From: Pyrococcus yayanosii CH1
GTDB taxonomy: Archaea; Methanobacteriota_B; Thermococci; Thermococcales; Thermococcaceae
DNA length: 64,000 bases
Assembly: GCF_000215995.1 (NCBI RefSeq)
Contig: NC_015680.1
Span: 1,625,160-1,689,159, forward strand
Reading direction: 5' to 3'
Part shown: positions 230 through 4,421 of the stretch, in pieces
Position numbering within the stretch: position 1 is the first letter of the stretch
Layout of the letters: each line of letters starts with the position of its first letter
Notes under the pieces: model-generated
The model's database searches: none
The model's input: the letters and a program-made list of their open reading frames with translations, nothing else
What the model was told of the DNA's origin: nothing
Made by a program: the position numbers and the translations under genes

Positions 230-1576
230 ATGGCGAGGCATTACATTCCGAACTCCGCCCACAAGGAGGAGATGCTGAGGGAAATCGGCTTCTCCTCCAT
301 AGAAGACCTCTTCGCCGACGTTCCAAAGGGCATGGTCAAGGAGTTCAACCTGCCCGAGGGCAAGAGCGAGTTCGAGGTCTTCCTTGAGCTCAACGAGGTT
401 CTATCAAAGAACAAGACTGTCCTTGAAATGCCGAGCTTCCTTGGGGCTGGAACATACTTTCACTACGTCCCTGCCCACGTCAAATACCTCATCGAGAGGA
501 GCGAGTTTCTAACAGCTTACACCCCATACCAGCCCGAGATAAGTCAGGGCATACTTCAGGCTCTGTTCGAATATCAGAGCCTCATAGCCGAGCTCGTGGG
601 CCTTCCCGTCGTGAACGCCTCCATGTACGACTGGGGAACCGCGATGGCCGAGGCCGCGCTGATGACGGTCAGATTGTTCAGGGGCAAAAGGAAAAAGTTC
701 GTGGTCCCTAAGTACACCCACCCGGAGAGGATGGCCGTCCTGAGAACTTATGGAGCGGGGCCCGGCATCGAAATAGAGACCGTTGGATGGAACGAGAAGG
801 GCCAGCTCAACCTCGAAGAGCTAAAGGAGAAAGTAGAGGGGGCTGCAGGCGTTTACATCGAGATGCCAAACTTCTTCGGAATCCTCGAAGAGGAGATAAG
901 GGCGATAGGCGAGATAACCCATGACGCCGGGGCCTTCTTCGTAGTCGGCGTTGACCCAACCGTTCTAGGAATAGTTGAGGCACCGGGAGAGCTTGGTGCT
1001 GATATAGTCGTCGGTGAGGCGGCATACTTCGGCAACCCCATGAACTTCGGCGGGCCGAGGGCTGGAATCTTCGCGGTCAGGAATGACCCAAAGCTGATAA
1101 GGCAGATGCCCGGAAGAATCATCGGAATGACAAAAGATGCCGAAGGAAAGAGGGCCTTCGTCATGACACTTCAGACAAGGGAACAGCACATAAGGAGGGC
1201 CAAGGCGACCTCTAACATATGTTCTAACGAGGCACTGGTTGCTGTAGCTGCAGCCATACACATCGCAAGTCTCGGCCCGAGGGGCATTAGGGAGCTTGGC
1301 GAGGTCATCCTCAAGAACACCGCCTACCTGAAGAAGCGCCTGAGTGAAGTTGGGGAGATACCCTTCGAGGCCGTCAACTTCAAGGATGTCTTGGTCAGGT
1401 TCGAGAAGCCCTATCCGGAGATACACGAGGCTCTCTTAGAGAGGAACATACACGGCGGCTACTACGTTAAGCCCCACTTCCCGGAGCTCGGTGAGGCAGC
1501 ACTCTTCGCGGCCACCGAAACGACGAGAAAAGAGTGGGTCGATGCCCTTATTGAGGCCCTGAAGGAGGTGAGTTAA
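230..1576 (+). CDS. gcvPA: Glycine dehydrogenase (decarboxylating) subunit 1, GcvPA
   Basis: Alpha subunit of the two-subunit glycine cleavage P-protein. With GcvPB it decarboxylates glycine and passes the aminomethyl group to lipoyl-H protein. From ATG 230 the protein has 448 residues and begins MARHYIPNS, as archaeal GcvPA proteins do. It carries the family's PNFFGILEE and [18 protein letters not shown] segments. The frame stays open back to ATG 182 (464 aa), but that extension would be translated through the TATA box at 186-200, so I reject it; ATG 224 is also possible. It is followed with a 1-nt overlap by a DUF104 gene and then gcvPB. The PLP-binding lysine is on the B subunit. Confidence 0.93.
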
Positions 1577-1776
1577 TGCCCATAGAGGCCGTTTATGAGG
1601 GAGGAGTAATCAAGCCCCTGAAGCCTCTAAACTTGAAAGAGGGACAGAAAATCAGGATAGAGATTATGGGCGATTTCATTGAGGACAGCTTTGGGATAGT
1701 TAAGTTGAAAGTTAACCTCAAAGAGCTGGAGGAAGCCTACCATGAGTACCTCCTTGAGAGAACGCGTGCTGATTGA
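1576..1776 (+). CDS. DUF104 (AF2212-like) antitoxin
   Basis: A 66-residue protein starting [20 protein letters not shown], the typical opening of DUF104/AF2212-like proteins. These are small beta-barrel antitoxins usually paired with PIN-domain VapC toxins. The start ATG overlaps the gcvPA stop by one base and follows GGAGGTGAG, so it is translated from the gcvPA message. The expected partner directly downstream survives only as a 34-codon remnant overlapping this gene's 3' end, so the antitoxin now lies alone between the two halves of the P-protein operon. The fold is inferred from the family; there is no sign of decay in this frame. Confidence 0.75.
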   Translation: MPIEAVYEGGVIKPLKPLNLKEGQKIRIEIMGDFIEDSFGIVKLKVNLKELEEAYHEYLLERTRAD

Positions 1777-1846
1777 CAACAACGTTATCGTGGAGCCCCT
1801 TGATCTCGGTTTAGTGGAGATTATAAAAGCCGAAGGAATGAGGTGA
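1742..1846 (+). pseudogene. Remnant of a PIN-domain VapC toxin
   Basis: Frame 1742-1846 encodes 34 residues that include [14 protein letters not shown]. This matches the first strand and acidic residue of PIN domains (usually VLIDTNVIIE), then a short [13 protein letters not shown] tail and TGA. A functional VapC needs about 130 residues with three or four spaced acids, so nearly the whole domain is missing. The frame overlaps the DUF104 gene by 35 nt, the normal arrangement for an antitoxin-toxin pair. Its last codons contain the gcvPB ribosome binding site, which may be why the fragment has been kept. Confidence 0.6.
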
Positions 1847-1851
1847 TGATC

Positions 1852-3357
1852 ATGTTCCGCCAGGCTAGGTGGGATGAGCCCCTCATATTCGAGCTTTCTC
1901 GTCCCGGTAGAGTCGGCTACACCCTTCCCAAGCCGATTGAAAATATTGAGGTCGAGGTTCCCGAGAAGATAAGGAGGAAGAGTCCCCTCAACCTCCCCGA
2001 GCTGAGCGAACCCGAGGTAGTGAAGCACTACACGCGGCTGAGCCAGATGAATTACGGTGTAGATTCCGGCATCTACCCGCTCGGTTCATGCACAATGAAG
2101 TACAATCCCAAGATAAACGAGGAGCTTGCTGGCCATCCAAAAGTCGCCTACATCCATCCCTATCAGGACGAGAGGACGGTGCAGGGTGCCCTTGCGATAA
2201 TGTGGGAGCTGGAGCAATGGCTTAAGGAAATAACTGGAATGGACCGCTTTACCCTACAACCGGCGGCAGGTGCCAACGGCGAGTTCACCGGAGTCATGAT
2301 AATCCGCGCCTACCATCTCGACCGCGGCGAGTCTCAAAGAGACGAAATCCTCGTGCCGGATTCAGCCCACGGAACTAACCCCGCCTCGGCTGCCATGGCC
2401 GGCTTCAAGGTCATTGAAATTCCTTCTAACGAGAATGGAACGGTTGATTTGGAGGCCCTTGAGAACGCGGTTGGCGAGAGAACTGCCGGTCTGATGCTCA
2501 CGAATCCCAACACCCTCGGCATATTTGAGGACGAGATACTTGAGATAGCGAAAATCGTGCATAGGGCCGGTGGTCTTCTCTACTACGACGGCGCTAACCT
2601 CAACGCCCTCCTCGGCAAGGTGAGGCCCGGCGATATGGGCTTCGACATAGTGCACCTGAACCTCCACAAGACCTTCTCCACCCCGCACGGTGGCGGCGGC
2701 CCAGGCGCTGGTCCCGTTGGCGTCAAGGACTTCCTGAAAGACTACCTGCCCGTTCCGCTCGTGAGCTACGATGAAGAAAAGGGCTACTACCTCGATTACG
2801 ATGTTCCAAAAAGCATAGGCAAGGTCAAGGAGCTCTACGGCAACTTCGCCGTCCTCGTCAGGGCCTTAACGTACCTGAAGATAATGGGCAGGGATGGGCT
2901 CAGAGAAGTCAGCGAGGTGGCGGTGCTCAACGCGAACTACCTGACGCAGAAGCTAAAGGGAACCAAGGGCTACGAGCTCCCACACAAGGAGCTTAGAAAG
3001 CACGAGGTGGTGTTCTCGGCGGAGCCTATGAAGAGGGAGACGGGCGTTAAAGCTCTTGATGTTGCCAAGAGACTTCTCGACTTCGGCCTTCACGCGCCAA
3101 CGATGTACTTCCCGTTGATAGTGCAGGAGGCGTTAATGATAGAGCCCACCGAAACGGTCACCAAGGAGGAGCTCGACGCCTATGTCGAGGCTCTCAAGCG
3201 GATAAGCGAGGAAGCATACACCAATCCTGAGGTAGTCAAGAGCGCCCCGCACAACACGGCCGTCAGAAGGGTGGATGACGTCCTCGCGACGAAGAAGCCC
3301 GTGATCACGTGGAGAATGTACAGGGAGCTGAAGGAGAAGGGAGAGGTGGATTACTGA
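1852..3357 (+). CDS. gcvPB: Glycine dehydrogenase (decarboxylating) subunit 2, GcvPB
   Basis: Beta subunit of the glycine cleavage P-protein, 501 residues from ATG 1852 (preceded by GAGGTGAT). The PLP lysine lies in [18 protein letters not shown]; the glycine-rich segment after it is diagnostic. N-terminal landmarks include [11 protein letters not shown] and [11 protein letters not shown]. Length and motifs match archaeal GcvPB with no truncation. Upstream in-frame GTG 1843 and ATG 1846 overlap the ribosome binding site and are less likely starts. It works with GcvPA; the genes for T, H and L proteins are not in this window. Confidence 0.95.
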
Positions 3358-3412
3358 GGGTCGGTCAGTGCCGATGTCATCATTGCTCAGACCGGTAAAC
3401 GTTCCTCATTCC
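3358..3412 (-). ncRNA. Box C/D guide sRNA (minus strand)
   Basis: On the minus strand the intergenic DNA reads as a complete double-guide C/D sRNA. C-like box ATGAGGA is at 3409-3403, a 12-nt guide at 3402-3391, D' box CTGA at 3390-3387, a 3-nt spacer, C' box ATGATGA at 3383-3377, a 12-nt guide at 3376-3365, and D-like box CCGA at 3364-3361. Both guides are exactly 12 nt, the archaeal norm. A TATA element centred near 3437 predicts a start near 3412, just before box C. The 3' end abuts the gcvPB stop. Box C has G for U at its fifth base and box D has C for U at its second, giving a G-C instead of U-U pair in the kink-turn. Guide complements are TCAGTGCCGATG and ACCGGTAAACGT; I did not assign targets. 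Confidence 0.68.
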
Positions 3413-3430
3413 CCTATTCTTATTCACAGG

Positions 3431-3443
3431 ATTCTTTTTAAGG
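3431..3443. promoter_or_regulatory. Shared, nearly symmetric TATA element between two C/D sRNAs
   Basis: ATTCTTTTTAAGG contains a TATA-like core that reads as TTTTTAAG on plus and CTTAAAAAG on minus. Measured 25 nt either way from its centre (about 3437), the predicted starts fall near 3462 (+) and 3412 (-), each a few bases before the C box of an sRNA. Bidirectional use is inferred from geometry only. Confidence 0.5.
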
Positions 3444-3461
3444 TCTTGGGCCAAGTACATT

Positions 3462-3520
3462 TGGCCAATGACGAGCGTTAGCCACGCTGAAGATGATGAG
3501 AAGAGGGTTAGCCGAGGCCC
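3462..3520 (+). ncRNA. Box C/D guide sRNA (plus strand)
   Basis: C-like box ATGACGA (3468-3474), guide GCGTTAGCCACG (3475-3486), D' box CTGA (3487-3490), 2-nt spacer, C' box ATGATGA (3493-3499), guide GAAGAGGGTTAG (3500-3511) and D-like box CCGA (3512-3515). Both guides are 12 nt. GGCC on each flank (3463-3466 and 3516-3519) can form the terminal stem with one bulged A. A TATA element sits about 30 nt upstream of box C. Again box C (U to C) and box D (U to C) change together, giving C opposite C in the kink-turn. An 18-codon frame over the same DNA (ATG 3468) is probably fortuitous. Targets would contain CGTGGCTAACGC or CTAACCCTCTTC; not assigned. Confidence 0.66.
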
Positions 3521-3554: not shown

Positions 3555-4421
3555 TCACAGGTGCTTCTTCAGAAACTCTCCCACCCTTTCCTTCCACTCC
3601 TCCGGGTAGAGCTTCAGGGTTCTCACGTGGGGAGCATCTGTCACCCAGAGCTCAACCTCCCGATTTATCACCCTGTTCCTCTCGTAGAACTCCCTGATTT
3701 CCTCAACCTTCACGAGAGGGTCCTTTTCTCCCGCTATCAGGAGGAGGGGCTTTCTAACTTTGTCAGCGTATTCAAGCATGTTCAGCTCCTTTGCACCACT
3801 GAAGAGCTTGGTGAAAGGCTTGACGAAGGTGTAGAGCCATTCCGGCAGTTTAGCGAAATAACTAAGCCCTCTAGCCCCTGTTTTGTCAAGATAAATCGGC
3901 GGGCTGTCAGCAACTCCACAGCAGACCCTGTCATCCTCAGCGAGGGCCCTGATGGTAACCATTGCCCCCATGGAGAAGCCTATTAGCCCTATCTTACCAG
4001 CCCTCTCAGGGTGCTTCTCCTTCAGCCAGTCTATCGCAGAGAGAACGTCTATTACCTCTCTATCGCCAACGGTCGTGTATTTGCCTTCACTTCTTCCATG
4101 TGCCCTGAAGTCGAAGACTAAAACGTTGTAGCCCTCCCTGAGCAGGAACTCTATGGTGGGCTTCATGTAGAGGGAATACCACCTGCTTGCGGTGTAGCCG
4201 TGAAGCGGAATCACCGTCTTATCGCTTCCGTTGTCTATCCACCAGCCGCTCAGCTTGAGACCATCGCGCGTCTCTATTGTTACATCCTCGTATTCGAAGC
4301 CAAGGTCCTTTGGCGTCCAATTCTCGATAAGTCGCGATGGTCTTACCATCTTGTAGCCAACGACGGCGCTGAAGGCTAGGAAAAGGAAGATAACAAAGGC
4401 AAGGGCAACGAGCCAGCCCAT
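3555..4421 (-). CDS. Membrane-anchored alpha/beta hydrolase
   Basis: 288 residues with one N-terminal membrane segment (about residues 3-22, ALAFVIFLFLAFSAVVGY) followed by an alpha/beta hydrolase domain. The nucleophile elbow is GFSMG (Ser about residue 149), with an upstream PLHGYTASRWYS oxyanion region, then an acid in LIAGEKDPLV and a late His in DAPHVRTLKLYP. It resembles the dienelactone hydrolase/BAAT-type peptidase-esterase clan; the substrate is unknown. The start follows GGTGAGGTGATAG. It lies 9 nt after an MFS transporter gene and probably ends the three-gene minus-strand operon that begins at 7084. Confidence 0.8.
   Translation of the reverse strand: MGWLVALAFVIFLFLAFSAVVGYKMVRPSRLIENWTPKDLGFEYEDVTIETRDGLKLSGWWIDNGSDKTVIPLHGYTASRWYSLYMKPTIEFLLREGYNVLVFDFRAHGRSEGKYTTVGDREVIDVLSAIDWLKEKHPERAGKIGLIGFSMGAMVTIRALAEDDRVCCGVADSPPIYLDKTGARGLSYFAKLPEWLYTFVKPFTKLFSGAKELNMLEYADKVRKPLLLIAGEKDPLVKVEEIREFYERNRVINREVELWVTDAPHVRTLKLYPEEWKERVGEFLKKHL

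Follow-up and report, generated by a model that had tools for sequence, protein, structure and literature searches.

Two box C/D sRNA genes lie on opposite strands in the gap between gcvPB (+) and an alpha/beta hydrolase gene (-) of Pyrococcus yayanosii CH1, and the RNAs that they encode, sR12 (-) and sR34 (+), are very probably 2'-O-methylation guides transcribed divergently from one symmetric TATA box. This judgment takes in the use of TBP and TFB, the trimming of the transcripts and the methylation itself. Its basis in our analysis of the window (the whole stretch of 64,000 nucleotides that we examined) is the genes, their geometry, their conservation and their complementarity to rRNA; both RNAs and both start sites have been shown by others in Thermococcus kodakarensis (PMC9014305). 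In the proposed mechanism, TBP would bind the near-palindromic TATA and TFB would engage either side of it. Transcription is predicted to start about 22-24 bp from the TATA each way, at about 3461 (+) and 3416 (-), and the 5' ends that an earlier note on this DNA had placed at 3462 (+) and 3412 (-) fall close to these computed positions. The short transcripts would be trimmed to C/D RNAs of roughly 60 nt that bind L7Ae, Nop5 and fibrillarin, and three of the four guides would direct methylation in the 23S rRNA, around helices 68-71. For this organism we infer TFB use in both directions, the expression of the sRNAs and the methylations.

The coordinates of the locus are collected in Table 1. 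Both sRNA genes scored above the Rfam gathering cut-offs (40 for RF01273 and 38 for RF01147), and their E-values place the resemblance to the two families beyond chance. Sequence and Rfam matches alike bear out the two full C-D'-C'-D arrays, with four 12-nt guides, that had been proposed from the letters of the DNA. Each RNA has the archaeal box C/D features (C, D', C' and D boxes, 12-nt guides and a GC terminal stem), and CCGA replaces CTGA in the D box of both. On its own, neither RNA folds in a remarkable way (z about -0.4); such a result of conventional folding is usual for C/D sRNAs and does not count against them. The 3' end of sR12 lies 2 nt off the gcvPB stop codon. Upstream, between gcvPA and gcvPB, we also observed a lone 66-aa ORF of the AF2212-like antitoxin type (window 1576-1776, +; Pfam PF01954).

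Table 1. Features of the sR12/sR34 locus (positions in the window; minus-strand elements are given 5' to 3').
Feature	Position	Strand	Evidence or remark
gcvPB, glycine dehydrogenase subunit 2	1843-3357	+	Pfam GcvP2_C, GDC-P; convergent onto sR12
sR12 box C/D guide RNA gene (RF01147)	3360-3411	-	Rfam cmscan 50.9 bits, E 1.4e-7
sR12 box C ATGAGGA	3409-3403	-	sequence
sR12 D' guide ACGTTTACCGGT	3402-3391	-	sequence
sR12 box D' CTGA	3390-3387	-	sequence
sR12 box C' ATGATGA	3383-3377	-	sequence
sR12 D guide CATCGGCACTGA	3376-3365	-	sequence
sR12 box D, variant CCGA	3364-3361	-	sequence
Divergent promoter spacer, 52 nt, common to sR12 and sR34	3412-3463		gap between 5' ends
Shared near-palindromic TATA box TTTTTAA	3435-3441 (T/A boundary 3439/3440)		weight matrix; invariant in 58 distinct spacers
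sR34 box C/D guide RNA gene (RF01273)	3464-3517	+	Rfam cmscan 79.8 bits, E 2e-13
sR34 box C ATGACGA	3468-3474	+	sequence
sR34 D' guide GCGTTAGCCACG	3475-3486	+	sequence
sR34 box D' CTGA	3487-3490	+	sequence
sR34 box C' ATGATGA	3493-3499	+	sequence
sR34 D guide GAAGAGGGTTAG	3500-3511	+	sequence
sR34 box D, variant CCGA	3512-3515	+	sequence
Alpha/beta hydrolase gene	3555-4421	-	Pfam Hydrolase_4, Abhydrolase_1; convergent onto sR34

We scored the spacer between the two genes with a BRE-TATA weight matrix obtained by expectation maximization (EM) on 203 upstream regions from 400 kb of the same genome (consensus GAAAAC TTTAWAAA). The same bases, TTTTTAA, scored 8.6 bits in the sR34 direction (centre at -25.5) and 13.0 bits in the sR12 direction (centre at -27.5), which puts the TATA 25-28 bp from the 5' ends of both sRNAs; random placements of the same divergent geometry reached both scores in 58 of 200,000 trials. 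The TATA matrix is nearly symmetric and a good score on both strands is, therefore, partly automatic, so the case rests on the spacing and the start sites. Of 18 control RNA genes from this genome (one tRNA gene, the other 17 for small non-coding RNAs), 11 have a site of at least 7 bits at about -23 to -32, and the placement found for sR12 and sR34 is thus a normal one. The shared, near-symmetric TATA block that had been noted at 3431-3443 and its spacing are as described, with the TATA proper inside the block. One TATA hence stands at about -25 of both divergent starts, which are predicted here and mapped in T. kodakarensis. The flanking BREs differ: +2.1 bits on the sR12 side versus -2.0 bits on the sR34 side, where the median across genomes sharing a single TATA is -4.8 bits. 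With a good BRE on one side and a poor one on the other, transcription may be strongly biased.

The arrangement is conserved across the Thermococcales: of the 94 genomes from this order, 92 carry sR34, and sR12 adjoins it divergently in 82 of the 92 loci, in four genera. The largest class comprises 61 genomes (58 distinct spacers) with a 5'-5' gap of 50-53 nt and one TATA common to both genes, centred at -26.2 (sd 0.6) from sR34 and at -27.4 (sd 0.8) from sR12; the two placements coincide within 2 bp. TTTTTAA never varies among the 58 distinct spacers, although these are related sequences and percentages overstate their independence. The best-conserved columns outside the TATA in these related spacers are a T at -16 and an A at +15. 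Read in its own direction, each 5' end is thus preceded by an A at a distance of about 10-11 nt, which fits a promoter-proximal element in both directions. The gene on the left is nearly always convergent onto sR12 (gcvPB in 21 genomes, dTMP kinase in 56) and the right neighbour of sR34 varies widely; as the neighbours change around the locus, the sR12/sR34 pair and its promoter stay together. Such conservation of both RNAs across genera already contradicts the proposal that only one promoter is functional and that the opposite RNA is bidirectional noise resembling a C/D sRNA by chance. In P. furiosus, symmetric TATA boxes often give rise to antisense noise (PMC6640164), but here both RNAs match Rfam families, the guide cores of both stay complementary to 23S rRNA and both orthologues were sequenced as circular RNAs in T. 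kodakarensis (PMC9014305), which makes noise an extremely improbable explanation. The RNA tree places the window beside a single Thermococcus sequence but is built on 114 columns only, and in the gcvPB tree the window stays with Pyrococcus; we therefore do not claim that the cassette entered this species by horizontal transfer. A second strong sR12 match (41.3 bits; G088:C20:6790-6841, L043) was observed on another contig of a fragmented genome and is possibly on a duplicate contig.

Published data for T. kodakarensis provide start sites for the orthologous pair. Table 1 of PMC9014305 lists the circular RNAs sR41 (1226838-1226899) and sR42 (1226948-1227017), here called Tko-sR41 and Tko-sR42, and the same paper gives their start sites at 1226903 (-) and 1226948 (+), respectively, from the primary transcriptome of Jager et al. 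(2014). The sR34 gene of one genome in our set (G023) maps to 1226844-1226898, and the 23S coordinates of this genome agree with those in PMC9014305. These matches identify G023 as T. kodakarensis, Tko-sR41 as the sR34 orthologue and Tko-sR42 as the sR12 orthologue. The RNA named sR34 in that paper has other coordinates and is a different RNA, and we rejected it as the counterpart of Rfam sR34. The reported starts of Tko-sR41 and Tko-sR42 are 21.5 bp and 23.5 bp, respectively, from a single TTTTTAAAA at 1226921-1226929. Together with the 50-53-nt spacing in 61 genomes, these start sites and the reads reported in PMC9014305 support the bidirectional use of one TATA that had been suggested for the window. 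The covered passages of PMC9014305 and of the start-site paper contain no discussion of a shared promoter for Tko-sR41 and Tko-sR42.

The same data bear on whether the TATA drives sR12 only, with sR34 processed from gcvPB read-through in the way that most archaeal C/D sRNAs arise from longer precursors. Speaking for such an origin are the weak sR34-side BRE, the transcription of gcvPB towards sR34, a review estimate that only about 20% of archaeal C/D sRNAs have their own TATA motif (PMC7994747) and the small-RNA reads of T. kodakarensis, 1,967 for Tko-sR41 versus 12,085 for Tko-sR42 (PMC9014305). The read bias is not general, however, for the total-RNA reads in the same source are 359 versus 226. 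Furthermore, the sR34 orthologue has a reported start of its own at the distance from the TATA given above, and the narrow spread of the sR34-TATA distance across 61 genomes is unexpected for an unused site. We therefore regard transcription of sR12 alone from the TATA as unlikely. In T. kodakarensis the small-RNA reads follow the BRE asymmetry and the total-RNA reads do not; because the two types of reads disagree, they permit no conclusion on relative promoter strength.

The shared TATA is not universal among the relatives. In 16 genomes the gap is 35-37 nt and holds two interleaved TATAs with an offset of 16-18 bp; each of them sits at about -27 of its own gene, close to the start of the partner. 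Two separate, overlapping TATA boxes are very unlikely to be used in the window as in these relatives, since its 52-nt spacer has no other site of at least 4 bits on either strand beyond 1-bp shifts of TTTTTAA. Three further genomes (G004, G006 and G008, presumably P. abyssi, P. horikoshii and P. furiosus) have a gap of only 2 nt and no TATA between sR12 and sR34. The gap is 80 nt in another two (L116 in G007 and L118 in G011), where a 44-bp insertion moves the sR34 TATA to -70. The insertion is a CGCCCTTCAGGGCG-type hairpin, a dispersed repeat with 9-17 copies per genome and about 20 in the genome of the window, and presumably resembles the right end of IS200/IS605-type elements. The remaining 10 loci lack sR12, and six genomes of one group (g4) among them keep the sR34 promoter. 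In two outgroup loci without sR12 (L121 and L120, in G002 and G093), we observed that sR34 is reversed beside dTMP kinase, in the usual place of sR12. When the shared state is mapped onto a 23S tree (29 genomes), no fewer than two changes are required, in Thermococcus (g3) and in the lineage of the window, and the tree does not polarise the change.

The P. furiosus group has its next good promoters on the far side of the partner gene. At +75 to +83 on the minus strand, they score 15.0, 13.7 and about 8 bits, and the plus strand has a site of 8.5 bits at -90 in two of the three genomes. From their positions we predict that transcription may run through the antisense of the partner. It is possible, though we put it forward tentatively and think it rather doubtful, that the divergent promoter is a module which evolution rebuilds rapidly, with a shared TATA, a pair of interleaved TATAs or none at all. 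Where only 2 nt separate the 5' ends, in genomes of the P. furiosus, P. horikoshii and P. abyssi types, an outside promoter would then produce each guide RNA by transcription across the partner's entire antisense. The two precursors would in that case be complementary to each other, and they may be processed in a coupled way.

We searched for guide targets in the rRNA of the same genome (23S positions are in its own numbering). The D' guide of sR12, ACGTTTACCGGT, pairs through 11 nt with 23S 2007-2018 (predicted Gm2011), the D guide of sR34, GAAGAGGGTTAG, pairs through 10 nt with 2031-2040 (predicted Cm2034), and the D guide of sR12, CATCGGCACTGA, pairs through about 9 contiguous nt (one G-U) within 1966-1977 (predicted Um1970). 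Hence, three of the four guides, with 9-11 paired nucleotides placed by the D+5 rule, match one 76-nt stretch of domain IV (1966-2041), and the three predicted sites are kept in nearly all the 23S genes compared. The helix 68-71 region in which they fall is a methylation hotspot (PMC4644070), so the nearness of the targets is suggestive of coordination rather than proof of it. The fourth guide, the D' guide of sR34, has a strictly conserved core and a best rRNA match of 8 bp (23S 2306-2313) that is missing from many Thermococcus 23S genes. Searches with its complement, GTGGCTAACG, in 16S, 23S and the whole genome of the organism revealed no convincing target and no tRNA; in the genome, the complement matched nothing but the gene for sR34 and one coding region.

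Each separately, the two RNAs and this type of promoter are already known. The earlier note had called the arrangement little described, a description that applies only in part: BRE-TATA-BRE promoters with start sites 49-50 bp apart were shown in vitro in P. furiosus in 2019 (PMC6640164), and the mechanism is thus not new. Literature outside subscription journals yielded no paper describing a shared TATA for two guide RNA genes and none on divergent C/D sRNA gene pairs. In that literature we likewise found no earlier description of the conservation of a shared TATA between two functional guide RNAs, of the switch to interleaved TATAs or of the disappearance of the spacer from the P. furiosus group. 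Archaeal bidirectional TATA promoters have so far been regarded chiefly as generators of antisense noise. At this locus dozens of species keep the geometry to a few nucleotides, apparently because both RNAs are useful, and these RNAs match nearby sites in a single region of the rRNA. The natural series of shared, interleaved, insertion-disrupted and deleted promoters offers ready-made test promoters for the choice of direction by TBP and TFB and bears on how guide RNAs still arise once a promoter is lost.

Compared with the Pyrococcus box C/D sRNAs of Rfam (RF01273 and RF01147), the RNAs of the window have the same sequence and box architecture, but both D boxes are CCGA and the gap is 52 nt rather than the 2 nt of P. 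furiosus-type genomes. By their coordinates in PMC9014305, Tko-sR41 and Tko-sR42 are the orthologues of this divergent pair and likewise have one TATA halfway between them, but their left neighbour is dTMP kinase where the window has gcvPB. Within the same genome, HgcF (H/ACA, -) and snoPyro_CD (C/D, +) are also divergent RNA genes, 75 nt apart (L178 7689-7986; G000:C1:147689-147986), yet each has a separate TATA, whereas sR12 and sR34 share one. The bidirectional promoters of P. furiosus likewise combine one TATA with opposite starts 49-50 bp apart, as here, but their second product is mostly antisense RNA taken as non-functional (PMC6640164), whereas the sR12/sR34 promoter has a weak second BRE and conserved guide RNAs on both sides.
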